DNA from: Mayamaea pseudoterrestris | Taxonomy: Eukaryota; Bacillariophyta; Bacillariophyceae; Sellaphorales; Sellaphoraceae | NCBI GenBank assembly: GCA_027923505.1 | Contig: BROI01000001.1 | Coordinates: forward strand, 1,024,501-1,088,500 | Direction: 5' to 3' | DNA length: 64,000 nt | Position numbers and translations under genes: made by a program | Part shown: piece by piece, positions 20,645 through 59,200 of the stretch | Position numbering within the stretch: position 1 is the stretch's first letter | Layout of the letters: the number at the start of each line of letters is the position of its first letter | The notes under the pieces: model-generated | What the model was told of the DNA's origin: nothing | The model's input: the letters and a program-made list of their open reading frames with translations, nothing else | Database searches by the model: none

Positions 20645-23510
20645 TTATTTATTGACTGCCGACAAGCGTTGTATCAAACGGTCTAGTGCTCGCCTGGAAA
20701 GCTGCTCTGTGATGTCGTCAAACCGAGTCCTTGCCGCAGGATCCAATGAAGCCAAGGCTTCAATGATCTCCTTGTTAACGATCGCGCTTTCCGCTGAATC
20801 CCGCCCACCAGTTTGTATAGTATCAATTGCGTTACCGACAAATTGCAGCGCAGATCTCGCAGCGTCATTGTCCAGCAATCCATTTCGGCCAAGTACTCCA
20901 GAGCGAAGGGCTTGCAAAGCAATTTGGACGGTCTGCGGATCAATCACCTTCTCGCCCTTGATTAAAGAGCCGATATTTTCACCAAAAAACTCCTTAGCAC
21001 CTTCACCAACTCCAATGGCAAAAATTTCTTCATCTTGATCCAGTTTAGGCGCCACAACATCAATAAGGTCTTTCAACGTGAGCATTCTAATTGACGGCAC
21101 ACCAACAGACCCATTAGCGTCTAGCGAAGGAAGTAGTATTGGCAGTGGCACTTGATCTAGCGTGGGTGTCGGAGGAAAGATATCACCAAAGAAGGGCAGC
21201 GCCGGAGGACGCGGCGGCGTCAGTGCAATCATGGCTTCCGTCGCGCCTCGCCGGAAGACTTGTCGACTAATGACATCAACTACTGCATCAACTTCCTTCT
21301 CCAGAAGCCCTCGCAAGCCTGCCGCATTGTCGGACAAAAGATAACTTAGTCCTTCTTGCAGTGAAATACCATTCTCTGGCACCTGATTAATATCGACAAA
21401 TGCTGCACCGTCCTGACGGGCGACCTCGCCTGCCGCATTGTTCAGCAAGGCCAGTAATCGCGTCAGTTTGAAGCCCGCACTACCGCCACCGTCGTTTGAA
21501 TACAAAACTTGCTGCAAAGCCTTTTGTATTTCTGGCCGACCTTCTCGCATAAGCTTTCGAGCAACAAAAGGATAGCTTGCTTGAATTATCGCGTAGTTTT
21601 CGTCGCCTGTCAACGCAATCCCTTCCAGCGTGACAATCGCTCGTCCCAACAAAGCAAAGTATGGCGGAATCGTAAACGGAATATCGTTCAAAACAGTTAA
21701 CGCATCTATTCAACAAAGAAATGAGTTAAAAATGCTGCATTGTCTGGCTGTACACGACATCACACTACTACCGTTGGGCCTCCTTACCTTGCGTCATGGC
21801 TTGAAACCCACCAACTTGCGACTGCATCGACCCGCTCTCCATGCCATAAATCTTTTTCAACTCTTTCTCGTAGTTCTTAGCGCCTCCACCTTGCACATAC
21901 GGACTCAAGGCCTTGTCCATTAATGGAATAATGGCCGCGCGATCCGAGTCCAAAGGTAAAATACCCAAACCGATAAAGTCATCAACGAGACTGGCATAAT
22001 CCTTATTAGCCAAGTGAATCACGGCGGAAATCATGTTGTCACGATCCTTCATGTCAATGGATGCCATCAAACCGCAATCAATTAAAGCGATCTTGGCACC
22101 TTCGGGTGTTGGCTCGTTCAGCACCAATATGTTGCCTGGATGAGGATCTGCCGGTTTACATCGGAGGAGAAGCTGAGCTCACGAAGGCTGTGAAAACGCT
22201 TCTGCAATCAAAGATTTATAAGACTTACCAGCATGAAAGAACCCCAATTCGAACAACTGCGTCAGGAACGCTTCCTGCGCAAGCGGTGTCACTTCGTTGA
22301 CAACTTCCGCCGGCACGCTACTCAGCTTCGTCCCATCAATCCACTCGCTTACCAAGATGCGACGAGTACACAGGTGATCAAAAGTCTTTGGTACAATCAC
22401 GCCCGTGACATTTTGTGCTATCAACAGCTCTCGCAACTTTCGCTGGTTTGCTGCCTCATTTTGTAAATTGAGTTCCGTGTAAAAGCCAATAGCCCACTCA
22501 TTCAACAACGCCACGTAGTTCGTTTTTTGCTGCGGAGCGAATCGATCCACCAGTCCCTGCCATACTTCAGCGGCTCGCCGCAATACATACAAATCCTTAC
22601 TGACAGTGCCCAGAACGTTTGGCCGCTGCACTTTGATGGCAACTGGAGTTTGAAACTCATCATTCAAGGTTGCCTTGTATACTTGCGCCAAGCTTGCCGC
22701 TGCTACTGGCTCCTGACTAATCGAGGAAAAGAATTGTCCAAGCGGCCCACCAAGTTCCCGTTCAATTTGGGCAACAGCCACAGTCGTATCAAACGCCACG
22801 ACGGAATCTTGCAACAGTTGGAGCTCCTCCAATGTTGCCTGCGGCAACACATCAGGACGAACACTCATGACTTGTCCAAGTTTGATAAAGGTGGCACCAA
22901 GGTCCTGCAGATCAATTCGTGCTTGCTTGGAGAGTGCTGGTATTTCTGCATCAGTAATTTTTCCATCGCGGATCCATAGCGTTACAATTTTGGTAAGAAA
23001 TGGAACCGTCTTGCCAACAAACTCAGCCCATCGTTTCTGTAGTGCACCCCGCTCTTTGGTCCAGTATCGTTCAATGAGTTCCTTATTGTATGTGAGTGGC
23101 AAACCTTCCTCGTCGAGATTGCTAGGATCATTCGCGTCATCTCCACTCATGGCAATGTAGGTTTTGCTCGTGTCGGGCGCTTCCAAACTCTTCATGGCCA
23201 CGGCAGCGTTGACTGCCGCAGTCGCTACGGCGGCAGCTGATGCGAGTCCACCGCTTGCTAGTCGTGACGAGAATGAATTGTTCTTTTCTTGCTTTGATGG
23301 CTGCTGTTGTGATCGATTGCTGTTTCGAAGCGAGTGCGTCGACTCGAGTTCCTGCTGCTCCTTGGTAGGAGTTGACATGTGCAGATGGGATGTCGAAGAT
23401 GTTGCAGCATGATTGCGTCCTTGTGACTGTATTGAGGGTGCAAATGAATGTAAATGTTCGAGGAGCAAGAAAAGTATTGCGATGCTTGAGGCAGCGTGTT
23501 TAGTCAGCAT
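20645..23510 (-). CDS. ABC1K: Plastid ABC1/UbiB-family atypical kinase
   Basis: Three exons, 22229-23510, 21788-22147 and 20645-21705, with 81 and 82 bp introns that split the codons for the Asp of DPHPGN and the Asp of TQDALT; 900 residues in total. A signal peptide (about 1-21) is followed by HSFAPS, an ASAFAP-like motif, so plastid import is expected. The kinase core has the ABC1 hallmarks: KLGQ at 210-213, an Ala-rich loop (AAASLAQVYKA, near 270) replacing the usual Gly-rich loop, the ATP lysine in AIKVQRP (Lys293), the TELNLQNEAAN motif near 345, and DPHPGN at 428-433. The metal-binding DFG is DCG here (LIDCGLM, Asp451). The 350-residue C-terminal extension is typical of plastid ABC1K proteins, which act at plastoglobules on prenylquinone metabolism. 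Confidence 0.92.
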
Positions 23511-24115
23511 GACGGTATATCAAAGTAAATATTGTTGCGGTTTGTGGTCAAGGCTCAATGCTCAGAGGAGGTGCGGAAGAGCGGCTGAAATGCGCGATAA
23601 AAGGGGTCGTGTATCGATGACTGGACAGTTCACTGAGCTTCACTGCTTATGTTTGTCCATGTCCTGGCTGACTGGGCGATGATTCCATGTGCTTCATGAC
23701 GATCGAACAAGAACCATCATCGTCGTCATGAGCAAACGAACGAATGAGTCGGCCATTCGAAAACGTGGCGAAGAGCGCACGCACAGGTCGCAGCGGAACT
23801 CATCTGTGTCACGCGTCGCATCGGTTCAAAAGCGCGGGCGCCGCGGCTCCGCGCTTCCATCGACCACCATGACTGTTCAAGCCGCTCTTTTGTGCCAAAA
23901 GGATGAATGACGCGTCGGGCTATGCGATTCATTGACATAGATTATACACAATCAGACAGACAGCTTTATTGTGAAGCCATACGCATTCAAAAAACAATTA
24001 CGCTCAGCCAGCTACTTGTCTACTGACTACTCCAATTTTTAATCTCCACGTCCACGTGAAAGCTTACATTAACCTGTATTAAGCAACAAAACTACCGTTC
24101 TTACTATAAACCACA
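23511..24115. other. Divergent intergenic region between ABC1K and an orphan gene
   Basis: A 605 bp region shared by two genes read away from each other; it must hold both promoters. A high-GC patch near 23830-23850 and an AT-rich patch near 23935-24050 are visible. No gene is supported. Confidence 0.45.
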
Positions 24116-25695: not shown

Positions 25696-28600
25696 ATGGC
25701 TGTCGACCTTTTACTCAAAATGCTTCGGCGTCGGACAACTTCCTCGAACAATTCACCTCTGTCGATGCGCCTGGTAGTGTTGTTGTCACTCGCCAGCCTC
25801 GCATCTACACAGCAAATAACATGCCCCGACGGATCGACGGGATACGGAGACATATGTGGGTTGAATCATGACATTAACGGTGAAGTCCAACGAATACAAG
25901 ATGGCGGTGACTCAAAGCTGCTATACCTTTATCGGCTCTGTCCCGGTGTCGAAATGAACATGACGGAACCATTAGTGCCAAAGCTTGATGGATCCGTATT
26001 TCGCTGCGGAAATAGTGGACTACCGGCCGAAGACTGTAAATTTAGTGGAGGTCTAAATCAAGTAATAATACAGCCAAGCAAAATACCTTCCCTGCCACTG
26101 CAAGATGTCCGAATTGAAGGAGTTACCTTTACTGGCTTTACCGAGACTGCAATATCGGGTGAGGCGACGGATGTGACGACAGTATCGCTGGAAGAAATTC
26201 AGTTTATTGTAAGTCTTAATGTTGCAAGAGAGTGATGCACCTTTGACCAGCGACTGCGGACTAACAACGTGTTCTCACCTTTGTCTACATCTCAGGCATT
26301 TGACGCAACCTTTGCTATTAAGCAAGGCAACTCACTCGAAGGCAAAACCCCATTCTCGGTCGATATCTTTGGAGGCTCTGTCGTTGGAGCTGGCGGAATT
26401 GGATCAGTTTTTAGCAACGATGGAGGAAGCTTGACAATTGAGCAGGTATCTGTCGTCGATTCGAATGATGTTATGGCACTGGTAGCCACAGGTGGACGAG
26501 GAGCAACTATCGCAAGAGACATTACAATATCAGGAGGAACAATTGCAGTAAGTCGCGAATGATGATGAGTAGCTGTTGCCTTGTGTAAAATGCTCATCCC
26601 ACGCTTTGCTTGGACAGGACGTTTTCTCTATCGTTGGCGGAGGTACACTCATGGCGAGCGGCATTTCTATTCAAGACATGACCTTCATTAAAAATGGCTT
26701 TGAAATCCAGGGCAGCAACAGTCGAGCAACCATCAGTAATACAAATTTCATGACTAACACACGCCTTCCTCCGGCGCAAAAGTGGCAAGGCATTTCAGTT
26801 GTTGCTGGAGGCAGCGCCGTTGTGAGCTCCACTGCTTTTATAAATAATCGTCAAATGCTGGCAGTACTCTCTGCAGTTGGAGAAGGTGCGATTTTGATGG
26901 CAGACGAAATTACTATCGAGTCCGTCTCTGGAACGACAGCCGACGACAGTGTAACCGCCGCAGGCGTAATCTACGCAAACGCTAACGGCAAGGTCACAAT
27001 GTCACGCGCGACAATAAATCGTGCCCAAGCCTTCACGGTACGTACGAGCAACTTATGTCAATTGACAATAAAGTCTCGATGCTTACATGCTCTGCTCTGC
27101 TTGGTTGTTCCAGGCACTCATTTTCAGCAACCAAGGAAGCAGTGTGACAGTAAGTCAGTCGTGCTTTGAGGCTGGAACAGTCGACGCAGTCGTGTACCAA
27201 AGCGAAGAATCGATGGTCACTTCTGTTGGCAACTTCATAGATGAAGCAGGCATCAAGAGTGGCATATGTCGTACGGATGGGCTGAGAACAGCAATCGAAA
27301 AGCCTGGATCTAATTGCTTCGAAGGAGGAACCCCGTGTGAATGGAGTAAGTGCGATGAGACGCAGCTCGATAAACAATTGTGCAACCTACCTAACAGCCT
27401 ATTCCCGTTCTTTTGCAGCATGCACTCAATTTACTAATGCAGGCCAATGTTTAGCCCGATCGTCGCTCCAACCCGGATTTCAGGCGCCCTTCAATGCAAC
27501 ATTGGCCCCAAACTTGCCTAATGTAACTTCAACTTTCCCACCCACTGTTCCAACAAACAACGGGACTTTGCCACCTTTCACTCCACCTGTAAACGGAACA
27601 GCAACAAATGGCACTGTTTCACCAATTGCCACTTTAGCGCCAACTGTGACTCCTACACTGTTGCAAGCGACAGCTCCTCCGGTCATTGGTAACGCTACTG
27701 TAATTCCGGGCAATGCCACTCTGCCGCCAGTGGGGAACGTGACGTTAGTTCCGTCTCCTGGCGGCAACGCAACGATAGTTCCGGGAGTCAATGCTACATT
27801 GCCCCCGGCAGGTAACGCGACGTTGCTTCCAACTCCAGGCGGCAATGCAACACTTGTGCCAGGAATTAACGCAACTCTGCCGCCAGTTGGAAATGCGACA
27901 ATCATCCCGACGCTTGCTCCTGTGGAAAACGCAACGTTTGTACCAGGAGGAAATGCGACTATTGTGCCCAGTCTCACCCCGGGAGGAAACGCTACAATTG
28001 TCCCAGGGAACGCGACGATAGTGCCTAGCAATGGTACGTTGTTTCCGACCTTTGTGCCAGGTAACGCGACTTTCATACCAGGCAACGAGACCACTTCCTT
28101 TCCGACTTTTGCCCCAGGGAATGCAACTTTTGTACCAACTAATGCGACAATATTTCCAACTTTTTCTCCTGGAAACGTTACTTTCCCAACGCTGTCTCCA
28201 GCCAATGCAACGCTATTTCCGACTGTGTTGACCAATGCCACGCCAGTGTCAACGGCATTTCCAACTGCGTCGCCAGCACCAACAACAACATCGAAGCCGA
28301 CTCCTTCGGAGCCAACGTTAAGTCCAGTCGTCCCATCCCCTTCACCAACAATCGAGCCAACCACTACCCCTGGCCCGACGGCAATGCCCTCCGTGCGTCC
28401 TTCGACAGCTCCAACAATATCTTCACAACCGTCGCTGTCAAGCCAACCTTCGTTTCCGCCATCTATATCATTTTCGCCCACGACGTCGGCACCATCAGCG
28501 TCGCCCACCGCTGTGCCTTCGCTCAGTCCATCTGGCTCACCAACAACGCTCGCGCCATCTTACTTGCCATCAAGCGCACCTTCCGCTGCCCCGTCAAAAA

Positions 28601-29346
28601 ATCCATCTGCAGCTCCGTCTGCACTACCAAGTATCCCTCCGACGAGGAGTCCAGCACCAAGTGGGATACCAACAGAAATGCCAAGCTCTGTTCCATCCAC
28701 ATCAGTTCCCAGCTACCGACCGAGCCCGGTTCCATCATTAAATCTGGCGGCCGTTCCCACTAACCCGCCAGCGACTGCAAGCCAATGTGACTGTCGGTTG
28801 TACTGGTTTGATGGCAATTCATATTTTGGTAACGACCCAATCAACTATGGAGACGAAGCACCGACCAACAATGCAGCAGTACCAACGCAAATGCCGCCAC
28901 CTCCACCTTACGTGACAGGCACAATAGTGTACCCACCGAAACAGCCGAAACTTGGCAGTCACAAGCAAAGGCGACGTACAAGATCACGACCAAACGTCGA
29001 AGTCTCGCATCATCGGCTAAAAGGCGCTACCGCTTTTGACCTAGTTGCCGATAACAATCGACGTTTAAAGGATATTAAAGGCAGCAAGAAGTATAGCTAC
29101 AAGCTACCGCCTCCACTACCTCCGCCAATAATACCTCAACCGTCACCCATTGTTCCCCAGCCGCCATTTGCGGGCGGCAATGGCGGTACTACCGATCCTT
29201 GCTGGTACTACTGCAAATGGTTATCATTTCAGGACTTTGACGTGACCATTCCAGCGAGTCCTCCCGTTAGCAGAGGGCAAGCAAATCCTCCCGATGGTGG
29301 ATACCATGGTCCAAAGCCTGATGGTGACGCCTCTTTCTTTCATTAA
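25696..29346 (+). CDS. Large secreted glycoprotein: beta-helix-like head, N-x-T/Pro-rich stalk, basic silaffin-like tail
   Basis: Five exons, 25696-26208, 26296-26547, 26618-27037, 27114-27345 and 27419-29346; introns are 87, 70, 76, 73 bp; 1114 residues. A signal peptide lies in residues 24-38 (MRLVVLLSLASLAS), so Met24 (25765) may be the real start. Residues 40-470 have repeated short strand-turn units (DVRIEGVTFTGF, ANGKVTMSRATINRA, GSSVTVSQSCFEAG) like a right-handed parallel beta-helix, with Cys at the ends. Residues about 490-760 are a run of NATxxP units, extremely rich in N-glycosylation sequons. Then comes a PS/PT-rich stretch and a Cys pair (ASQCDCRLYWF). The tail is basic (RRLKDIKGSKKYSYK) with Pro-rich ends. 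No enzyme motif is visible. It is probably a cell-wall, girdle or adhesive protein. The next gene downstream is its paralog. Confidence 0.82.
27489..28260 (+). repeat. Degenerate coding repeat encoding N-x-T sequons
   Basis: Inside the last exon of the first glycoprotein, units of roughly 21-39 bases encode variants of GNATIVPG, VNATLPPAG or NATFVPGG. I see more than twenty Asn-x-Thr sequons in about 255 residues. Unit sequence and length vary, so this is an old, diverging repeat rather than a recent tandem amplification. The same bases give a long open frame on the other strand, a by-product of the repeat. Confidence 0.85.
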
Positions 29347-29681
29347 GAAGAGGACGACAACAGGCCGGTTGCCAAGACTTGACAATGAATGTAAAAAGAA
29401 ATGTTGTATACAATTTATTATAGATTATCTTCATGTTTTATTGCTTTGTGAATCTCTTCGATTGGAAGCACAGTACTGTCCTCAACATGCCTTTGATTGA
29501 TTAAAAAGGATAGTACGGTAGCTAATACCAAGCACAGCCGCCAGTCTGGATACAAGACTGTACCGGTATGAGCCGGTACGCTCGTCAAGCGTTGGATCAC
29601 GCAGACGCTCTCACAATTTCGTCGAGCATTTCCTCGAAGGACTCGCTCTGTCAACACACCAATCACCACTGCTACTCCACC
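29347..29681. other. Intergenic spacer between the tandem paralogs
   Basis: About 335 bp between two genes in the same direction. It holds the 3' UTR of the first, AT-rich at 29390-29450, and the promoter of the second, with an exact TACCGGTA at 29561-29568 followed closely by the half-site GCCGGTAC. Confidence 0.5.
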
Positions 29682-32217
29682 ATGATGGAACGAAGATTCA
29701 ACATGCCGCGACGAATAATAGAGCAAAAGCTCTTTTTAGCACTGCTAATAATAGGGACACTGCTAGTGCCAGAAGCAAATGCCGAGCCAGAGCTCTGTCC
29801 AGGCTCGACGACAGAGTTTGGCTATACATCAATCAACTCCATCAATACCGACATTACCAATGAGCTCATGCGCATACAGAGTGGTGCGACTCCAAATGGC
29901 ATATATACGTACAGTCTCTGCAGGAATACCGTCTTTGACGCAAACGCCGGCCCCTTACGACCTGGCCTAAGCAACTCATTCTTCATTTGCGGGCCAGACG
30001 GAAATCCAAACAACAAATGCACGATACAAGGCGGAAACATTCAAGTCGAAATAGTTAATTCCATGCTGCCAAATTATGAGCTTGCCGAGATCACTTTTTT
30101 GGGCATTCAGTTCAGTGGATTCACGACGCAAGCAGTCTCGGCGTATGCATCCTTTCCCACACAAGCAAACTTTCGGAACGTTTTATGGACAGTACGTTGA
30201 GGAAACACAAGTTTGACATCATGTAATGATTGCTGCTTTACCTCTGACACTCATTGCTTTTATTTCGCTTCATCTAGGACTTTACGAGCGAATTTGTTGT
30301 CCGGCAACAACCGGGCAACGGCACAAGCACCGACATCGCACCTCCAATGACAATCGATATATCAAATTCGACAGTGTCCGACGGCACGACTAGCGCCGTA
30401 TTTGACAATGACGGAGGCTCGCTGCGGGTGCAGCAATTGCAAGCGACGGGCGTAACAGCGCCCGCGTTGATGGCAACATCAAATGGTGGCAACTCCTTTT
30501 TTCAGGACTCGGTTGTTTCGGCCAGTCGACTGGATTACGTGACGGAAACGTCTGGATCGGGTGCCCAGAGCGTCATCAATGTCCAGGTCCGTGACATGCT
30601 ATCCATGGTCAATACATTTCGCGTCCAGGATGTCGGCAGCCAGTTGACAATAAATAGTGGTGCAACTATTACAAACAATAAGCTCTCTGGGTCGCGATTC
30701 TCTGGCGTTTACGCAGAAACTGGAGCAACAGCGAAAGTGAATGATTTTACCATGAGTGGCAATGAAGGCGTTGCCTTTGCCTTTTACTCAGTTGGCGTCA
30801 ACACGAACGTGCAAGTCGCTGACTCGATAGTCGACGACAATGTTGGAACGGTACGTGGAAGAGGAGAACGAAGTTAAGCATGAAAAGTGATCGGAGCAAC
30901 CATTAGTCTCAACTATTTCCTTACGTGCAGGCTAATCCTCGGTTCATTAGCGCGCCTGGCATTGCGCTGTCAAATGGAATTCTTTCGGTAGACAGCACAC
31001 TGTTCAATCAGAACAACCAGTTTGCGGTAAGCCATTGCCCATTCGTGGCTCCGCGCGGTATATTTGTTTGCTCATGATGTGTTTGGCTCATGTTTTTGGA
31101 TGCCCTGTTTTTCCAGGGAGCGCTGCTGGCTCTTGTCGGATCCCAATTAAACATTGTCAGGTCATGTTTCACTAATTCGCAGTCAGAGTACGTTGTCTTT
31201 GTCGATGCTAAGTCGAATTACACGCAATCCGATAATTTTGTATCTGGGTATAGCTCTTCAAGATGTGCAACGGAAAGCGGGCGTCTATTCCAGGAAAACT
31301 CAGAAGCAGGATGCTTCACAGGCTCCAATATTTGTACCGGAGAGTGCAGGATACTGGCCAACGCAACGGTGTGCATGGCGAGCACCATGCCTACGGCCGC
31401 GCCGGGATTTCCAACTGCAATTCCGACGACTATGCCTACAAGCATCGCTGTGGGACCCTCCGCAATGCCAACTGTTGAGCTTACGACGGAACCAGTGCCG
31501 ACGCAAAGACCTTCAACTTCTAGGGTTCCTGTACCTACAGCTGTGCCTACGACGCTGAATACCGTCCAACCCCCAACGATCGATACGTTTATACCCACGA
31601 CACTAACAAACAACACCTCACAGCCAACAACGCTCACAAACAACACTATTCAGCCTACATCGCTGACGAACGTTACTTTCCAGCCTACAGTCGCGGCATT
31701 GACAGGACCACCTTCCAATGCGCCATCGCCTGTACCAATTACACCCGCCCAATCATCCCAACCAGGCGCCCCAACTTATGCGCCGCTACAAACGCCCACG
31801 ACCCGGCAAACACCTCGGCCAGCGACGCCGTCACCAACGGCCTGTCTTACTTCAAAAGGCATCAAAGGCTCCAAATTGCCAAAGGCCCCAAAAGGTAGTA
31901 AAGGATGGTATAGCAAGGGCGCAGCACATGGAAGTAACGTGCATGAGCTTTGTTCGTCTTCAAAAAAGGAAGACAAGAAGGAAGCTAAAGCTAGCAAAGG
32001 CAGTGTAAGTGGAGCCTTGCCTGCTGCCAAAGCAAAATATAGAAATGGTTCCTGGTCCGGCTCTGATGGGAATGGTATTATGTCCATGATTTACGTAAGC
32101 GATTCAGGATCAACAGCAGTATCGGGGAAGGAACGAGCAAAGTACGGCAGGGACTTGCGCGATGTGTCGCCACCGAGACAAAAGCGGAGGATTCGGCACC
32201 ATCACAGTCGCAGGTGA
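29682..32217 (+). CDS. Second secreted glycoprotein (tandem paralog) with Lys/Ser silaffin-like tail
   Basis: Four exons, 29682-30191, 30278-30850, 30931-31026 and 31117-32217; introns are 86, 80, 90 bp; 759 residues. A signal peptide is centred on LFLALLIIGTLLVPEANA; Met at 29703 is another possible start. The head is paralogous to the upstream gene: CPGSTTEFGYTSINSINTDI aligns with the CPDGSTGYGDICGLNHDIN region, then EL.RIQ.G and SLCRNTVF align with EVQRIQDGG and RLCPGVEM. Intron positions are similar, with one intron missing here. The stalk has TTLTNNTxQPT repeats. The tail (from about residue 638) is basic: SKGIKGSKLPKAPKGSKG, then KKEDKKEAKASKGS, resembling silaffin-type Lys/Ser clusters. 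Probably cell-wall or silica-associated; inferred. Confidence 0.82.
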
Positions 32218-32439: not shown

Positions 32440-34086
32440 TTACGAAGTTGCCTGCCGTTGTTGCCGCTGGTTTGAGGGCCGCCTCCTCCTTCGCAATGGA
32501 TTTTTCCAAACCCGCCTCCATATTCCCGAAAGAACCGACGACGTTCCGATACCAAACTTTTTGAAGAAGGAGCCAATTCGCCATCCTAACAAACGCCACA
32601 TTCCAGCCGTGCCTGGTCGGCCGAACCCACCAAACGCGCGCGAATGAAAGTTGATGAGAGCCTTTTCGTACTGAACATTCCTCAAGTAGCTCGTTGCAGC
32701 CTCCCATCCCCATCGCTCGGCCTCCTTGCGTGCCGCCTTGCCCATTCTCTCGCGAAAGTTGGCGTCACGCAGTTGAGTCAATCGCTGTACATACGCATCA
32801 GTGTCACCCGGCTCGACCAAAAAGCCAGTCTTGCCTTGATTGATAATATCGGGAATACCTCCGGCATTGGCGCCCACGACGGGTACGCCGCTCGCCATGC
32901 TTTCCAGCACGACGAAACCGAGTGTCTCGGAATCCGATGGCATGCAAAAGACGTCAGCCGATGCAAAGGCTTCCGATAGTTGCGTTCCACTCAATTGTCC
33001 TGTAAAAACAGTATTGGTACCCTTGAAAAATTTCCGCAACTCCTCCTCCTGAGGTCCTTTGCCAACAATGGCCAATCGCGTATTGCTTGGTAGACGCTCC
33101 ATCACTTGCTTCAAATCCTTCAAGCGCTTCTCCGCTCCCAGTCGTCCAACGTAAACCATGAGAAAGTCATTCGGGTTATTATCCGTCATGATGTTTCGCA
33201 TATCCTTTGACTTGAACTTTGGATGAAAGCGAGTTGTGTCAATGCCCTTGCGCCAAACATCGACTCGTGCAATTCCATTCGACACAAGTTCATCGCGCAA
33301 CTGCGGACTCGTCACGAGCGTCAAGTCGGCTCTAGCATGCGCCCACCTCAATACTTCCCAGCAGGCTGCTTCAATGCCAGGAATGAATCCAAGATAGTTG
33401 CGTCCATAAAGCGGCAAGTGCGTGTGATAGCTCATGACGAGCGGCACGCACATGACGCGAGCATACAAAATGGCGGCAAAGAGTAAAAAGCCAGGCGACG
33501 TAACGTGAATCAAATCGGGTCGGGTAGTTTCCAGCATGCGGGCGCCCTTTAGTTCTGGAACATCAAAGGTTAACGAAATGTGATTATAGAGGGGAAAGGT
33601 GAATCCCTGCGTGTGTTCAATCGAGTAACCGGAAAACTCCTTTGGTAAATCCTTGACAGGCGTTTTGCTGTCGACGGTCAAAATGTCGACTTTGTCATTG
33701 GCCTTGGCCATGTACTTTAACATTTCCTGAAATCGATTCGCATAGCCGGAGACGTGCGTAAAAGGCGTTGGCTCCACCATGAGGCATATCTGTCGGGGTG
33801 GACTGCGACGAAGCGGAGGGACTGAAATGTTGCTGTCGTCATTCGTATTGTCGCTGTTTGAATCATTACTATGATTGCTGTTCTTGTTCTTCCTGTTTCG
33901 ATTCAAGGAAGAAATGGAAAGCATGGTATTGCTTTTAAATGTAACTAGTCCATGACGGGTAGCGATGGATTTCGACATGCGAGTGCACTGAGAGGCGGTA
34001 GGTGGAGCAAATGCATCAACGACGACATCCATTAACGCGACGAGCATGAGCAAGCCGAGACAGCATGATCTTGCCATCTGATGCAT
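32440..34086 (-). CDS. SQD2: Sulfoquinovosyl-diacylglycerol synthase, SQD2-like (GT4), plastid
   Basis: An intronless protein of 548 residues from the Met at 34086 (MHQMAR); upstream in-frame codons to 34155 would put 23 polar residues before the signal and are probably not translated. Residues 1-24 are a signal peptide with the ASAFAP-like VDAFAPPT, so plastid import is expected. The GT-B glycosyltransferase begins with the donor-site loop PTPFTHVSGYANRF and continues with LIHVTSPGFL, SYHTHLPLYGRNYL and WRKGIDTTRFHP, all typical of SQD2. The GT4 signature is FCMPSDSETLGFVVLESMASG then PVVGANAGGIPDI. The enzyme transfers sulfoquinovose from UDP-sulfoquinovose to diacylglycerol, making the thylakoid sulfolipid SQDG. 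A basic C-terminal tail (LRRRRRPSNQRQQRQ) is unusual. Confidence 0.92.
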   Translation of the reverse strand: MHQMARSCCLGLLMLVALMDVVVDAFAPPTASQCTRMSKSIATRHGLVTFKSNTMLSISSLNRNRKNKNSNHSNDSNSDNTNDDSNISVPPLRRSPPRQICLMVEPTPFTHVSGYANRFQEMLKYMAKANDKVDILTVDSKTPVKDLPKEFSGYSIEHTQGFTFPLYNHISLTFDVPELKGARMLETTRPDLIHVTSPGFLLFAAILYARVMCVPLVMSYHTHLPLYGRNYLGFIPGIEAACWEVLRWAHARADLTLVTSPQLRDELVSNGIARVDVWRKGIDTTRFHPKFKSKDMRNIMTDNNPNDFLMVYVGRLGAEKRLKDLKQVMERLPSNTRLAIVGKGPQEEELRKFFKGTNTVFTGQLSGTQLSEAFASADVFCMPSDSETLGFVVLESMASGVPVVGANAGGIPDIINQGKTGFLVEPGDTDAYVQRLTQLRDANFRERMGKAARKEAERWGWEAATSYLRNVQYEKALINFHSRAFGGFGRPGTAGMWRLLGWRIGSFFKKFGIGTSSVLSGIWRRVWKNPLRRRRRPSNQRQQRQATS

Positions 34087-35211: not shown

Positions 35212-38185
35212 TTGATCCTTTCAATCAATCGACGATACAAAGAAGCAACCGATAGTCGAAAGGTAGGCAGAGGAAGCGTTTGGGCTGTTTCTACGTTTTC
35301 GTTTCTCACATTTTACGCGATCCTCAGCAACATGGTGCTCGGAACGTACCTTCGCGAGAACGGCAAAATGATTGTCTCGCGGATGATTCCATACTGGCTG
35401 ACCTGCGTATCGGCAGCCTGGATCGTTACATTCTTGTATATCTGGTTAGTAGATGCGGCTTACGCTTGGTATGACACGGTGTTTGGGTCAAAAGTAAGTA
35501 AATGCCGCGGCGCTTTCGCATTGGTGTAACGGACTGTAGAACAACGCCTTTTAACACCACCTTCCCTTGATATATACGCTGCATGTTTCTTGTTATAGGT
35601 AAGAACAGTAGCGGTTCATTGACATCTTGCCTAGTCTCTTCATTCTCATTCTAACGCTGTCGTTCCTCACCTCCCGTTCGAAGATTTTCAAAAACTTTGG
35701 CGACGAAATGATTGTTGGATATGGCTCTATCATGGTCGGCCTCATCGTTCCATTGATGTCTACCGCGTCAATCGCCGCTTTTCTTGTGACCAAGACGCCG
35801 CTTCCTGCATGGAAATTTTCCTGGGCCAACAAATTCTTTACCATGATCCGTCGCTTCAGAGCTGACGACGCAGAATACGGTCGCCACCTGGCTAAAAGGA
35901 ATCAGTTTGCGAAGGGGGAAGCAAACTTTAATCTGATGGCCATTTGGTTTGTTGCCCTTCCCAGTCTCATTGGCGCATTTGGCTATGTGCCATTTACAAT
36001 CGAATACGCGCCCATTTCGGCAGAGGAGCACGGAGTGAGCGAGGAACGCATGAAGTGGGTTCATGCCTCTGCCATTCTCGGATGGGGATCAATCATCGCC
36101 ATGTCAGCTTTTTTAATACCAGGTATGAGAAATGCGAATGCGATTTGATCTATCACATTCCTTACCATCAACTGCATCGTTTTGCTGACTTGCTTCTGCT
36201 AATAATTGCCATCGCTTAACCTTTTGCCAGTGGCCCGACATTCGATTCTATTGACTGCCATGGGGTAAGGATTTGTTGTCATTGCATGCGATTCACACCT
36301 TTACTCCAAACATACGGACTCAATCAATAGATCTGCTTCTTGCACGTTTGTTCCAACAGATGGTCTCCTATTCATGCTTTGCGCATACATATTTGGGCAG
36401 GATATTGCAGCTTTCTCATGGCCATGAGTCATACGGTCACCATGTTTGTGGTCTTTTGGGGCTTTGACAAGATTCCGCTTCGAGACCAATTTATTCCCAA
36501 GGCAGAATGCTGGGCGAAGGATGCCAACTTTACGCTTGCGGAAGGCGAGATGCACCCGCCACCAGAGGCTGATTGCCTTTGGCAGTGGTGGAATCTGACA
36601 GGAGGGTTTGCAGCGCTGTTTTTAGTCATCCTCTGGGCGACAAGCATCAATTGGGTCCGTCGCAAGAACTATCGTGTATTCTACGTCTGTCATGTTGTGT
36701 TTGGAACGCTCTTGATCCTGGCTACTTTCCTTCACTTCGATTTCTGCGCCATTTATATGTAAGTTCATGTTTGAGAGTGCATGATAGTGCAGTCAGGTGA
36801 AAAGGCTAAACCGCTAGACAAACGCATGCCGCAGGCTACCTAGCACGGCCTACTACATTGCAGCGACGGCGCCGTCTTTGATTCAAGCACTTGCTTCTCG
36901 CTTCCGCGGCGGAAACAAAATCGTTAAGGTGGTGGCGCTCCAAGATGCCGGGGGTTGCGTCGAGTTCCATGTCGCCACTGACTCTGAAGCTGGCAAGGTA
37001 ATTAGCACGGAAACCAATCTCTACGTCAAGCTTTGCGTCCCCAAGAATTCCTTGATCTGGCATCCATTTACCGTCTACCAGCATCCAGCCGATCACAACA
37101 TTGTCCGAGTCCTTTTCCGCCCCGTCGGTCCCTTTACCAAGCTTTTGTCCCTTCACTTGACCGCTCCTGAGCGTCCGGTTACCATTTTGGATGGCTTTTA
37201 CCGCGGTTCAGACCGAGTCGCCCATTCGCTCTTGCACGACCATGTCACCATCATTGCAGGCGGAGTCGCCATTACTTCCTTCCTTTCCTTTGTTCCGCGT
37301 CTGCTGGATGCCGTAGCCATGCAATCCAAGGAAATCCGCCTTTTGAACAGCATCACGCTCCACTGGGCTGTTCGCGAAACGGGTCTCGAGAAGTATATAC
37401 TCAAAGAGTTTTTACGTGTCTTCATGGCAAAAGCCAACGTGATCGACGGGCTTGATTTTCAGATCAAGATACATTGCACGGGAAGAAAGGCGACGGCGGT
37501 GGCGACTGAGGGCAAGGACATTGAAAGCTCCGACGATGGTGCCGAGCCGGCTATTGCAGTGGACGAGACGAGCTCTGGTTCTGATAGCGCCGAACTGATC
37601 AAGGAAGACACTCAGGCGGCAGTGGTTCACGACATTGCCAATGACACTGGCTTTGCCATGGAGCTAGCTCGCACCATGCCTGCCCGCTTTACGGAAATGC
37701 AGCGAAATATACCATACGCAGCTGGTTTTGTGGGCTTCATGTGGCTTGGATTCCACTTGACATTTTTCCAATACTCGTGGAATGATGACATCAACTATGC
37801 TGGTCTTACCAAAGTGACTTGGTACACGATACTCTTTGTCGTCCTGTCCGTTGTCTACGGCGCTGTTGTCGAAGGAGGGGAGCTCTTGTACCGCAAGTAC
37901 GTCCCGGCACCGCACGCGGATGACTTTATCGTGGAGCAAGGCATCAAGACTTTGGACGATGAGACGAATGCTGCCGTTCTCTTTGACTCTGCCAAGCTGT
38001 CAAAAACCTTTGGTCGTCCGACTCCCGAGTTGCTCTTGAGTGAGGCTAGTAATTCCGAGGCGCCTGGCATTTTCCTCTGCGGCCCGACCGCGTTGTGCCA
38101 TGATGTGTTCAAGGAGGCGCGCAAGGAGAATTCGTTCTTGGGGCTTACGCGATACTGCATCTACGATGAGCCGTTTGAAATGTAG
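35212..38185 (+). CDS. FRE: Ferric-chelate reductase / NADPH-oxidase-type flavocytochrome (5' end unresolved)
   Basis: Exons about 35212-35493, 35612-36122, 36231-36264 (only 34 bases), 36360-36758 and 36835-38185; introns are 118, 108, 95, 76 bp with consistent phases; 858 or more residues. The first exon has no ATG in the open frame, so the true start or a 5' exon is missing. The membrane part carries the two heme-coordinating His pairs: RIHIWAGYCSFLMAMSH and HVVFGTLLILATFLH. The FAD site is WHPFTVYQHP (near 485), and the NADPH site starts at IIAGGVAITSF (near 550). Two further membrane helices (GFVGFMWLGFHLTFF and TILFVVLSVVYGAVV) are inserted late, before the terminal FLCGPTALC motif. It would reduce Fe(III) outside the cell using cytosolic NADPH. 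Confidence 0.88.
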
Positions 38186-50592: not shown

Positions 50593-51687
50593 TTAAACAA
50601 TAATGAACGTTGCCGCCGTCGCAAGCATTGTCATGACAACCATCAACCATGCACATCCACTGACTGCAGCCGCTCCACTCAGCTCCTGAATGGTTCCATC
50701 GCCTGCACCCGTTGGCGATGCGGTTGGTTTTCCAGCTCCGCCCTCGCAAAAGGCACATTGCTCTCCCGAGTAGTCGCAACCCAAGCTGCAAGTGCCGTTG
50801 CAGTTGCCTCCGCAGTCGATCGTCACGCATGTTGCAAAGATGAATGGGTCTGGGACAGCAGTTTCATTAGTAGTGTTTGTCATAATTGTAGCATTCGCCT
50901 CATCCTGCAACCAACGACGCATCGCAACCGTCTCTAAAGCGGTTGGAGCCGTCGTTAGAAAGGGTGATATGACCGTGCCGGCTGGAGTAGGACCGGCAGT
51001 GGCCGCTGACACTGTCTCGTTGGTAAGCGCGCCATCAGTCGCTGCAGTTGGAGTTTGCGTCATGCTGCCAGTTGTTGGAGGTTGCGTCATGCTCGTTGAC
51101 GTTGGAGCCATGGTCATTGAAATGGATGGCGCCATTGTCGTTTCAGCCGTGGATGGCGGCATGGTTTGATCGGCCGTGCCAATGTCTCCTTCACTGCTCG
51201 GCGCCATGCTTGGGGCTTCCGATGGAAGGTACCTGCTGCAATCCAAACTCAGCGATGAGCTTCCAAAATCAATGGGGCAAACTGTACAAGGACAGTTCTT
51301 GGGAATCTTGCTTGTATTCGATGGCGTGATCAAGACGCTGCAGCTGCATCCATTCGCACGTCGGAAGTCAAACTGCGCCACGCCCAGCTCGCAAACAACT
51401 GTGGCATTCAAATCGACATAATCTTCCGGCGTTCCGACTCGCTGATGAATGAGACAAGCAAACTCCAAGCCGCCCTGGGTGTAACAGTCCGAGCTCGGGG
51501 CAATCAAGTCGGGCAAGGTGCCTCCCGATGTCTGAAGGGCCCGAGGTGACTGCTCGCGCAAGTAGGCGGACCGAAAGTCATGAAACTGGAGTGCCGCATG
51601 GGTTGCTCTTGGAGAATTCAATAAGAGGGCAAGAGCGATTAACAGTAGAGACATCCACGACGAGGTTGCCGCTGAAACGGTGAGCAT
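50593..51687 (-). CDS. Secreted Cys/Thr/Pro-rich protein with hydrophobic C-terminus (possible GPI anchor)
   Basis: A single exon of 364 residues. The signal peptide is MSLLLIALALLLNSPRATHA (Met12; Met1 adds polar residues). Residues 60-150 form a Cys-rich domain (CYTQGGLEFACLIHQRVG, then FRRANGCSCSVLI and NCPCTVCPIDFGS). A long Thr/Ser/Pro/Met stalk (STSMTQPPTTGSMTQTPTA) follows. A second Cys cluster is CVTIDCGGNCNGTCSLGCDY, then SGEQCAFCEGG. The last 22 residues are hydrophobic (WLMVVMTMLATAATFIIV) after small residues (SGAAAVSG), as in GPI-anchored proteins. It is likely a cell-surface protein. No enzyme motif is seen. It has the same Pro/Thr stalk style as the glycoproteins at 25.7-32.2 kb but no shared head domain. 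Confidence 0.75.
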   Translation of the reverse strand: MLTVSAATSSWMSLLLIALALLLNSPRATHAALQFHDFRSAYLREQSPRALQTSGGTLPDLIAPSSDCYTQGGLEFACLIHQRVGTPEDYVDLNATVVCELGVAQFDFRRANGCSCSVLITPSNTSKIPKNCPCTVCPIDFGSSSLSLDCSRYLPSEAPSMAPSSEGDIGTADQTMPPSTAETTMAPSISMTMAPTSTSMTQPPTTGSMTQTPTAATDGALTNETVSAATAGPTPAGTVISPFLTTAPTALETVAMRRWLQDEANATIMTNTTNETAVPDPFIFATCVTIDCGGNCNGTCSLGCDYSGEQCAFCEGGAGKPTASPTGAGDGTIQELSGAAAVSGCAWLMVVMTMLATAATFIIV

Positions 51688-51825
51688 GATGCAATGGTGG
51701 CTGACGAAAGTGAATGTGATTGGTGATGCTGGGCGAATGTGAAGGTGCGATGACAGAATGAGCAGTGAAAGCGAGGATCTACCAGCCGATAGACAAACGG
51801 ATTCTTCTTTCTTTTACTTGAGCAA

Positions 51826-55006: not shown

Positions 55007-56130
55007 ATGGCGAAGAAGAAGGTCCTCCTTATGGGAAAGGCCCATTCGGGCAAGACGAGGTAAATGAATTGCTGCAGTGCTGCTCTATGAGAGAAAGTGG
55101 AGCTAATCTGCAGAGTTCTTCTACTCAGTAGCTCCTTTTGCTGGCTGCTGCTTGCTGCTACTTTTGTACCTCCTCCATTTTGTGTTAAAACTCTTTATTT
55201 ATTCTTATTCACTCTCTTGTCAATTCTTGTATTAGCATGCGATCCATTATATTCGCCAACTACTTGGCCCGCGACACTACGCGCCTTTCGCCAACACTCG
55301 AAGTGGAATATCACCACATTCGTTTCATGGGTGATTTGACGCTCAACCTTTGGGACTGCGGTGGGCAAGACGCCTTTTATGACTCCTACTTTGAACGTGA
55401 TCGCGAGTCCATCTTTCGAAGCGTCGAGCTGCTCATTTACGTCTTTGACATTGAGTCAGAGTCGCCGGAAAAGGATTTTGATCACTTTTGCGGAGTCTTG
55501 GAAGCTATCGAAGAAAACTCGCCTGATGCTCGCGTCTTTGTATTGGTTCATAAAATGGACTTGGTGGCCGAGGAGGATCGAACGGCCATTTTGGAGGATC
55601 GCAAGCGGTTGATTGCGGATAGCTGCCAGTCGTGCGGAGTCGAAAACTTTGTCATTTTCGGAACCAGCATTTGGGATGAAACGCTCTACAAGGCGTGGAG
55701 CGAGATTGTCACCAACCTCATTCCAAACATTGGCTTGCTGGAGAATCACTTGCAAAACTTTTGCAGAATCTGCGACGCGGACGAAGTTGTCTTGTTTGAG
55801 CGAGCGACTTTTCTCGTCATTAGTCACGCACAAGTCAAGCCGTCGGCGGATGACCCAACCCTGACGCAGCGGACGGAACATTTTGACGCGCATCGCTTTG
55901 AAAAGATTTCAAACATTGTCAAGCAGTTCAAGCTTTCCTGCGGCAAGGCGCAGTCCTCCTTTCAGGGTATGGAGGTGCGCAACTCGAGGTTTTGCGCCTT
56001 TATTGACGCATTCACGGCGCATACCTATATTATGGTGATTGTGAGCAACGCGCAGGTTCATACGGCAGCCACGGTGATGAACATTCAGAATGCGAGGAAC
56101 CATTTTGAAAAGTTTATTCCGCGTGTCTAG
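55007..56130 (+). CDS. RAGA: Rag GTPase, RagA/B (Gtr1) ortholog
   Basis: Exons 55007-55059 and 55236-56130; the 176 bp intron falls inside the codon after the P-loop Thr; 315 residues, the same length as animal RagA (313). The P-loop is [14 protein letters not shown], with Ala-His where animals have Ser-Gly. Switch and G3 regions are [16 protein letters not shown]. The specificity motif is [20 protein letters not shown] and [13 protein letters not shown] are characteristic of RagA rather than RagC. The C-terminal roadblock-type domain ends [11 protein letters not shown]. RagA pairs with a RagC/D partner on lysosome or vacuole membranes and passes amino-acid sufficiency to TORC1. Its partner is not in this window. 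Confidence 0.96.
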
Positions 56131-56242: not shown

Positions 56243-59200
56243 TTAGTCGTCGAAAGCACCCAGCTCATTCATCCAAGAACGTCGCATTTCGACTTCCTCG
56301 CTATGGCGTTGACGCTTGCCAAGGGCTTTTGCCCGATCACGAAGCTCTACGGCAACCTTTGCTTCCTCGCCTTGCTCACGTTGCTTCTCGAAAACAATCT
56401 TTGCCATGGGTAGCAACAGCTTTAATAGAACATCAACCAGCTTGTCGACTGATTCAAAGTCGCGAACAATGAAACGAGGATACTGCTCCAGATCAACCTC
56501 ATCAATATGCTTGACATTGACGGCGGAAGTTATTTCCTTGATGGCTTCACTTTCCTCCTGATCAATCTGGTCCCATCCTTCGTCATCTTGATCGTCTGAA
56601 CTTTCGCCACCACTGATTCGTTGTATATCCTCCTTGCTTCCACCACTAATTTCAATGTCAACACCGAACGGTGAAAATCGGCCAGGAAAGCAAACATCAA
56701 CTCCTTTTGGAAGTACACCACGTGGAAGCAAAGACGCAATTGTCGCAATGTGCCGAGGCCGCAAGCCAGGGCTTCGTAAAACACACTCGGGCCCATCAAC
56801 GCCTTCCACAATGCCGACCAGATCGATGCCAAGTCGCCGGCACGACGCATGTAGATGCATGGTTTTAAGCTGGCTTTGCAGGTGAGCGGGCAGCGGCCCA
56901 TATGTTTCCTTCCAATAGTTTGTGAGAGCAACCAGCTGCGCAGTATTCTCAGCGAGGCGGGCTTTGGCAGCCTCTTTATACATCACTTCCTTGTCTTGTA
57001 TGTAATCTTCGGAAACCGAAAACGTATCAGGAGATCCAAAAGTAGGAACGAGCATACTCGTTCGCACCACAAGCGGCAAGTCCAAGCCTCGAAGCTTGCG
57101 AATACTCTTCTTCAGCATGCGCATGTAGAGATCAAAGCCAACTTTTGCGGCCAAACCAGACTGCTCCGTGCCTAACAAGCTACCAGCGCCACGGATTTCT
57201 AGATCGCGGTTCGCGATATCAAAGCCGGACCCCAGCTCATTCATTTCGGCCAGAGCTTGCAGTCGCATCGCTGCAGTCTCTGTATAAGACTCCACTCGAT
57301 GAAAGAAGTACGCGTACGCTTGCTTGTCGGATCGGCCAACTCGACCTCGGAGCTGGTACAAGGTCGACATTCCAAAAGCCTGGCTGTTCACGACAATAAT
57401 TGTGTTCACAGTCGGAATATCGACACCATTTTCAATCACAGTCGTTGCCAATAAAACGTCATGCTTGCCTTCGGCAAATGCTGCGACATTTTCTTCTGCG
57501 CCGTTTCGCAGCATTCGACCATGAGCTCGAATAATACGAATGTCAGGTGATATCTGCTTGATCGTTTCCTCGGCATCGTCAAGCATGGAAATCTTTGGAA
57601 CAACGTAGTAAATTTGCCCTCCGCGATTCAACTCTGTTTCAATGGCTTGGCGAACCAGATCTTCGTCGTACTCCTGAACGTAGGTGACAGTCGGCTTGCG
57701 CATCGGCGGAGGAGACCGAAGCGTCGACGTGTCCCTGATACCGCTCAAACTCATCTGAAGTGTTCGCGGAATCGGTGTTGCACTGAGAGTAAGAACATCA
57801 ACTCCGTTGTAGATGAGCTTGAGTCGTTCCTTCTGCTTGACGCCAAAACGCTGCTCTTCATCCACCACCAAAAGCCCGAGATTTTTGAACGAAACACGGT
57901 TAGACAAAAGGGCGTGTGTACCTACAACCAAGTCTGCTTCGCCGGAAGAAATTTGCTCTCGAATATCTTTCGCGGAAAGTGTTCCTCGCTTACTGCCACC
58001 GCACAGCAAAGCAATTTTTAGATTGAACGGCGTGTCGGGGCCCATTCGCTTCATCAAATTCTTGTAATGCTGCGATGCGAGGACTCCAGTTGGCGCCAAT
58101 AGGGCAGCCTGTTTGCCATTTATGATGGCTCTATACAAGGCCCTAAAGGCAATCTCGGTCTTTCCAAATCCGACGTCACCGCAGACAAGCTTTACATAAA
58201 AAGATAATTGGACACGATGAGTTCAAGGCAATGCAGATTCAAGACATTTCATTTGCCAACAAGTCACACTTACTCTATCCATCGGTCGACTGCGCCATAT
58301 CATGTCATTCTCCACATCTTCAAAGCACTTCTTCTGATCCACCGTCGGTTCAAAAGCAAACGTTTCCTCCAATTGCTTCACCTTAACTTCCTTGGCCGGA
58401 TCAAATGGCGTTCGCTGCACCGTCTCTCGCGTTGCGTACAGCGCCAAAACATCCTGTGCCATTTCCATGGTATTTTCCTCAACGCGCTGCGTTGCCTTGG
58501 CCCACGTGTCGCCCCGCAGCCGCGATAGTTTTGGTTTAATTGCAGCGTCGCCAGCTCGGTAGCGACTCAATCGATACGCTCGATCCAGTGGCACGTGAAC
58601 AATGCCATCCATGTAGGAGACTTCCAAGACTGTCGTTTGCGGATTGGATACAATGTCAGTGTCTTCCTCCGTTCCAAACTTGTCGCGAATTTCATTAATG
58701 TCCTTCGCCGTGACAGATCCGTTGATGTCTTGCAGCTCCTTCAGCTTGATTGTCAGTATCTCTGCTCGTCGTTTGTCGCGAGCTGCGATTTCATCAGTTG
58801 AAAGCTTGGTTTTTGGTTGCAGGCATGTCCGATCAAATCGCCCGATTCCATATTTGCGATGAACAACAAAATCTCCGGGAAATACTTCCAACGACCATCC
58901 ACCGGCGCTGCCAATGCGAATGCCAGCTCGTTTCGCAAACGATAATGACTTGTTGGGTAGTACAGGTGCTGGTGTCGATTTTGCACGAGCGTCAACCTCC
59001 TCTTTATCTGTATCACTTGCCAATCCAATCTCTAACTTTTTATCAGTTGTACTGTCCTCTGCATCACCTTCCATGAGCGCTTCCCACTCGGCTGTCATTT
59101 CAGCGTCCATTTCGCCGCCTCCGGCTTGCTGATTGGCTTTATTGTTCTTATTTACTTCATCCATTGACGGCAAGACAACCTGAAACTCAAGTCCCTGTGC

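Follow-up and report, generated by a model that had tools for sequence, protein, structure and literature searches.

Inspection of a 64,000 bp stretch of the genome of the diatom Mayamaea pseudoterrestris (class Bacillariophyceae, family Sellaphoraceae; 30.6 Mb in 41 contigs) reveals two neighboring genes, g1 and g2, that code for large and probably secreted proteins with a common order of parts. This stretch, contig C1 (BROI01000001.1) positions 1024501-1088500, is referred to as a whole as the window; coordinates below are those of the window. In both proteins a hydrophobic N-terminus is followed by a head with a predicted beta-helix fold, a stalk rich in sequons or in Pro with Thr or Ser, and a C-terminal tail. 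The features are as follows.

25696-29346, + strand: gene g1 (GenBank MPSEU_000037900), five exons (25696-26208, 26296-26547, 26618-27037, 27114-27345 and 27419-29346)
25696-25809, + strand: g1 likely signal peptide by hydropathy, residues 1-38, with hydrophobic LVVLLSLASLAS at residue 26
25810-27345, + strand: g1 head, residues 39-472, with three introns within; predicted parallel beta-helix
27472-28281, + strand: g1 sequon stalk, residues 491-760, with 25 sequons, mostly NAT
28282-28776, + strand: g1 PT/PS stalk, residues 761-925
28777-29346, + strand: g1 tail, residues 926-1114 and stop codon; Arg/Pro-rich, with two short Cys motifs (CDC and CWYYC) and a single KGSK
29068-29103, + strand: KDIKGSKKYSYK in the g1 tail, residues 1023-1034; five Lys in 12 residues, two of them adjacent, hence not a pentalysine cluster as defined below
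29682-32217, + strand: gene g2 (GenBank MPSEU_000038000), four exons (29682-30191, 30278-30850, 30931-31026 and 31117-32217)
29682-29783, + strand: g2 likely signal peptide by hydropathy, residues 1-34, FLALLIIGTLLV; a similar start is present in metagenomic fragment P0005
29784-31383, + strand: g2 head, residues 35-482, with three introns within; predicted parallel beta-helix with a helical cap
31384-31845, + strand: g2 PT stalk, residues 483-636; predicted disordered
31846-32217, + strand: g2 basic tail, residues 637-759 and stop codon; predicted disordered
31855-31902, + strand: g2 lysine block KGIKGSKLPKAPKGSK, residues 640-655; two KGSK and two overlapping pentalysine clusters

The outer limits of the pair (25696 and 32217) are the first ATG of g1 and the stop codon of g2, and the splice sites of both genes have GT donors and AG acceptors. 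The 759-residue product of g2 is letter-for-letter identical to the deposited hypothetical protein MPSEU_000038000. The g1 product has 1114 residues in the present model versus 1078 in GenBank (P0002), where one acceptor is shifted 24 nt downstream (27419-27442) with the loss of TCTQFTNA, and where 28 stalk residues are omitted (678-705 of the present model; about 28033-28117). The deposited acceptor is probably wrong – alternative splicing is the other option – because the motif C-x4-5-A-x2-C of three relatives is retained only with the upstream acceptor. The g1 start is ambiguous, with in-frame Met at residues 1, 9 and 24 and the hydrophobic stretch beginning at residue 26.

The initial annotation had described a tandem pair of related genes at this place, each with a signal peptide. 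Every part that it named lies where it was put; the pairing is borne out, and signal peptides are likely in both. By Kyte-Doolittle hydropathy there is a hydrophobic N-terminal stretch in g1 and g2 alike, as well as in two relatives encoded on contigs C38 and C2 and in metagenomic fragments P0004-P0006; a C-terminal hydrophobic stretch is present by hydropathy in the C38 and C2 proteins, and not in g1 or g2. Charge is partitioned along both proteins, with net values for head, stalk and tail of -17, +1 and +19 in g2 and of -20, 0 and +6 in g1 (the g1 head figure covers residues 39-490). The two heads are 29% identical across 461 residues (E 1e-43), and two introns occupy identical alignment columns:

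26209-26295, + strand: g1 intron 1, phase 0; alignment column 177, as g2 intron 1 (30192-30277)
27038-27113, + strand: g1 intron 3, phase 0; alignment column 405, as g2 intron 3 (31027-31116)

Because of this identity and these two phase-0 introns, g1 and g2 are tandem paralogs, old enough for most of their identity to be gone. Two further introns in g1 and one in g2 are unshared, and the stalks and tails of the two proteins are alike in composition only.

The heads had been described as beta-helix-like, and structure prediction agrees. AlphaFold2 gives a confident right-handed parallel beta-helix for the g2 head, the defining fold of pectate-lyase-like proteins, and leaves the stalk and tail unfolded. 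A match of the head to a known non-wall family had been named beforehand as a refuting result, and the outcome of that check is neutral. Among the structural matches listed, the closest comprise surface adhesins (Vag8, PfbA) and phage tailspikes as well as enzymes acting on polysaccharides (AlgE epimerases and PL6 lyases), at 7-14% identity to the heads. Pfam at E <= 1 returns only Beta_helix (g1 and g2) and DIP2116-like_N (g2 only, E 7e-4, below cut-off); the latter was set aside as a likely cross-match of repetitive beta-structure, as was NosD (one member, E 0.0092). A search of PDB by sequence gives one match for the g2 head, at E 0.18, and none at E <= 1 for a four-head profile; two NCBIfam matches are both far under their cut-offs.

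Alternatively, g1 and g2 might be wall-tethered lyases, epimerases or hydrolases that remodel diatom mucilage. Beta-helix lyases and epimerases employ basic, Tyr or His residues. Of the 331 head columns in which four or more of seven sequences (g1, g2 and five metagenomic fragments) are represented, 52 are invariant, and the only charged or Tyr residues among these are E45, Y48, D57, E61, D197 and D247. As no Lys, Arg or His is invariant with g1 included, whereas lyases and epimerases use basic, Tyr or His residues, the acidic head is probably non-catalytic. When only the g2 clade is considered, with three or more of six sequences required per column, four Arg (R93, R220, R310 and R365) are invariant as well, and columns after 365 are hardly covered, which leaves room for a site there or for a clade-specific one. 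The heads differ from pectate-lyase-like proteins in a diatom-specific Cys-bearing cap, in the added stalk and tail, and in showing no conserved basic catalytic residue. With only about 10% identity to such enzymes, and no Pfam enzyme family in eight aligned members at E <= 0.1, an enzymatic role seems very unlikely.

The initial annotation also raised the possibility of a new family of cell-wall or biosilica proteins, with a head unlike known silaffins, cingulins or frustulins. This view needs tempering: the head is not isolated, as this genome encodes at least two relatives that look tail-anchored, and its fold is widespread. A search of the M. pseudoterrestris genome with the g1 head gives no match beyond the pair, and with the g2 head only a weak match on contig C38 (E 4.9e-4). 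The C38 sequence in turn finds one gene on contig C2 (E 1.9e-6), which as a query finds C38 (E 5e-11, with a provisional join in the C2 gene), and in BLAST the C38 protein matches both g2 (E 2e-7) and g1 (E 7e-4). As spliced here the C38 gene encodes 449 residues (490 in GenBank MPSEU_001095900, P0003, via an upstream start) and the C2 gene 379. There are several common features. First, the four heads share cap cysteines and glycines, an SCF/TCF coil and a terminal C-x4-5-A-x2-C. Second, a phase-0 intron lies 16, 16, 18 and 19 residues upstream of the SCF/TCF cysteine in all four genes (C2 by eye); the first C38 intron aligns with the first intron shared by g1 and g2, and the C2 intron does not. 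Third, profile-profile comparison of g1, g2 and the five fragments with C38 and C2 gives a probability of 96.5 (E 9.4e-10) over 112 columns, in the cap only. In contrast to g1 and g2, the C38 and C2 proteins have a shorter beta-helix, a short stalk, a hydrophobic C-terminal tail resembling a glycosylphosphatidylinositol (GPI) signal, and no lysine cluster.

Outside this genome, the five metagenomic fragments (P0004-P0008) are 47-68% identical to portions of the g2 head, none extending into the stalk or tail; they appear to be exons that a prokaryotic gene caller extended into the adjoining introns (e.g. VLWT|VR in P0005). These and the species' own proteins were the only homologs among about 7,990 length-limited candidates scored per search from a 5.8-billion-protein set (E <= 1e-5 or 1e-3), which is not proof of absence from Phaeodactylum, Seminavis or other named diatoms. 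The cap motif itself may occur widely among diatoms. Possible further relatives are two weak matches to the C2 query (C21:310973-311083, E 0.01, and C34:14605-14706, E 0.08). The PF13229 beta-helix also occurs above its curated cut-off at C36:156076-156450, C26:180924-181286 and C16:288441-288611, the third only together with its neighbors.

Sequon- or Thr/Pro-rich stalks are present in both proteins, as first described, and only the g1 stalk is sequon-rich clearly beyond chance. Its residues 491-760 contain 25 sequons, against a mean of 4.0 (standard deviation 1.8, maximum 11) in 2000 shuffles, and residues 491-925 contain 53 PT or PS pairs; in the g2 stalk (482-636) there are four sequons against a shuffle mean of 1.4 (standard deviation 1.0, maximum 5). 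In the two heads sequons fall below shuffle expectation (1 vs 4.0 and 4 vs 8.2). The g1 array is not a fresh product of slippage, because the NAT codons are varied – 18 NAT units in the last exon fall in 14 distinct 9-mers, in which each Asn codon, each Ala codon and three of the Thr codons occur – and because the repeat copies are only 60-84% identical as DNA; the sequons were thus retained while the DNA drifted. The predicted g1 structure has short strands at regular intervals in this stalk (P0002 residues 557-674, within 27472-28281), with a predicted local distance difference test score near or under 50, so that a regular glycosylated stalk is possible, not supported.

The C-terminal Lys/Ser clusters and silaffin-like character claimed for both tails hold for g2 but not for g1, where a lone KGSKK (1026-1030) lies 84 residues before the C-terminus and the sequence around it is not rich in Lys/Ser. 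In g2, six lysines stand at an exact spacing of three from K640 to K655. KXXK with S or G at the X positions is found at 643 and 652, with a gap of five residues, and a pentalysine cluster (five non-consecutive Lys in 12-14 residues) starts at both 640 and 643. Of 20,000 shuffles of the g2 tail, 0.125% contain a repeated KXXK(S/G) and 22% contain a pentalysine cluster, which therefore says little more than that the tail is rich in lysine. Among the 147 six-frame open reading frames (ORFs) of at least 100 residues in the window, KXXK(S/G) occurs in six and is repeated only in g2, and a pentalysine cluster occurs in g2 and one 101-residue ORF. A composition screen for silaffins and cingulins asks for 18% S or more together with 10% K or more over 100-200 residues, and residues 632-731 of g2 have 20% S and 16% K.

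A stronger proposal would be that g2 is a silica-forming protein proper, whose tail, cleaved or not, would be modified with polyamines and phosphate and drive silica polymerization in the silica deposition vesicle, with the head as a carrier. The repeated KGSK, the pentalysine cluster, the Ser and Lys content of 632-731, and RXL sites at 471 (RIL) and 738 (RDL) would fit such a protein; g1 has one RXL site as well (RRL, 1020), and RXL is a short motif taken here with no chance control. Only 123 of the 759 residues of g2 are silaffin-like, and its large folded head is unlike known silaffins. We regard this proposal as highly improbable; kinship with or descent from silaffins is not shown for g1 or g2, and a claim of silica formation is not warranted.

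For the most part, known biosilica proteins are disordered and of low complexity, and frustulins carry acidic Cys-rich repeats. The comparisons that follow draw on parts of the papers cited. The silaffin-like proteins and KXXK proteins of Thalassiosira pseudonana have a signal peptide, repeated KXXK(S/G), a pentalysine cluster and, in some, PT repeats, and were screened by a signal peptide together with KXXK repeats containing S or G, 1-6 residues apart (PMC5501833); g2 qualifies, with its signal peptide taken from hydropathy, and g1 does not. That group is defined by composition and motif rather than descent, and the parts covered make no mention of a beta-helix head. Cingulins CinW2 and CinY2 (PMC9650480) are secreted, as g2 probably is, and like g2 carry clustered K-S/G-K motifs; nearly all of the cingulin Lys are inside such motifs. 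Pentalysine clusters directed eGFP to the T. pseudonana frustule in the same work, where two proteins chosen by a screen for a signal peptide and no transmembrane segment (one via lysine clusters, one via another motif) both proved to be frustule proteins. AC3362 of the benthic pennate diatom Amphora coffeaeformis (PMC4220933), a Lys-rich biosilica-associated wall protein, is similar by description only, and differs in being also Tyr-rich and in having no beta-helix head described in the parts covered.

The reading that we favor, at about an even chance, is that g1 and g2 are secreted wall-coat glycoproteins that display a beta-helix outside the silica shell. Both would be exported via the endoplasmic reticulum and remain outside the cell; the basic tail, clear in g2 and weak in g1, would retain the protein on anionic silica and the organic wall, the Pro/Thr/Asn-glycan stalk would space the head outward, and the acidic head, probably without catalytic activity, would present a surface for binding or act as a barrier, its ligand perhaps a carbohydrate of the cell's own mucilage or of neighboring cells. 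A wall-mounted display protein is the most economical interpretation because of the charge layout, the absence from g1 and g2 of the hydrophobic tail of C38 and C2, and the sequence properties of the g2 tail; placement at the shell surface is suggested because that tail is of the lysine-rich type by which silaffins are directed to silica. As a biosilica protein g2 is plausible and g1 unproven, and g1 is probably a secreted glycoprotein.

Several observations weigh against this interpretation. First, g1 has a single KXXK motif (residue 1026) rather than a repeat, no pentalysine cluster, and at best 10% S and 6% K in any window. Second, the lysine-enriched regions defined in PMC9650480 contain two or more K(X)2K (S/G) motifs separated by at most four residues, a rule that g2 misses by one residue (gap of five) and g1 by having one motif. 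Third, in that study four CinW2 lysine regions were taken singly and two of them gave mostly intracellular signal, and deleting or mutating the other two left the location of the tested fragment unchanged. Fourth, no relative from a known species was found that could show conservation of the tail, and there is no second copy of either tail in the M. pseudoterrestris genome at E <= 1. Finally, the signal-peptide and GPI-like assignments come from Kyte-Doolittle hydropathy.

Because a polycationic tail also binds acidic polysaccharide, a second interpretation stays in play, namely that both proteins are secreted adhesive components of mucilage (raphe strands, trails or biofilm matrix), not bound to silica, with tails that crosslink acidic polysaccharide and a sticky head. 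The mucin-like PT and sequon stalks, and a head fold common to bacterial adhesins such as PfbA, are in keeping with it. So are published raphid-diatom surface proteins, including the very large trail proteins and mucin-like CaFAP1 of Craspedostauros australis (PMC11420354) and von Willebrand factor D (vWD)/GDPH proteins tied to adhesion (PMC7335047); by description only, CaTrailin4, Ca5609, CaFAP1 and the vWD/GDPH proteins resemble g1 and g2 in being secreted, large, and mucin-like or modular. However, neither g1 nor g2 has the vWD domain or another adhesion domain in Pfam (E <= 1), both are far smaller than the named trail proteins, and the g2 tail has silaffin-type spacing. On balance we consider an adhesive role unlikely, without dismissing it.

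If g1 and g2 are instead wall-mounted display proteins, their relatives suggest a possible origin. The two may derive from beta-helix surface proteins ending in a hydrophobic GPI-like tail, or have a common ancestor with them; in g1 and g2 that tail is absent and the stalks are longer, and in g2 a putatively silica-directed lysine tail stands in its place. Such an anchor swap, in which beta-helix ectodomains that are GPI-like in two relatives were re-targeted in g2 to the mineral shell by a silaffin-like pentalysine tail borne on a mucin-like stalk, is a tentative proposal that we consider less likely than not, and its direction we infer from an unrooted comparison. Anchorage of the g1 protein might come from its Arg/Pro-rich tail, from its Cys motifs (CDC and CWYYC), or from partners. 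The apparently tail-anchored relatives on C38 and C2 make the anchor swap open to test by domain exchange.

Searches of open-licence PMC papers turned up no modular, glycan-stalked, silica-mounted display protein in diatoms. Among the papers listed, none concerns a beta-helix in diatom walls as judged by title, the one match for a parallel beta-helix with Phaeodactylum being on carbonic anhydrase, and no listed diatom paper contains the term right-handed beta. If g2 sits on silica via its tail, it would be a natural model for attaching a folded domain to the frustule and would allow pentalysine targeting to be tested directly in a pennate diatom, and wall proteins would become findable by head rather than by composition.

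No silica-related Pfam family was found in nine neighboring ORFs scanned in the window. Those with Pfam assignments encode an ABC1 kinase-like protein (22182-23513, - strand), a group 1 glycosyltransferase (32443-34086, - strand), a ferric-reductase NAD-binding domain (36818-38182, + strand), a Gtr1/RagA GTPase (55234-56127, + strand) and a DEAD/DEAH helicase (56246-58222, - strand). A further probable secreted protein, with no Pfam family at E <= 1e-4, is encoded at 50593-51813 (- strand); it has a hydrophobic N-terminus, a PT/PS stalk, the Cys-rich motif CGGNCNGTCSLGCDYSGEQCAFCE and a hydrophobic C-terminus.

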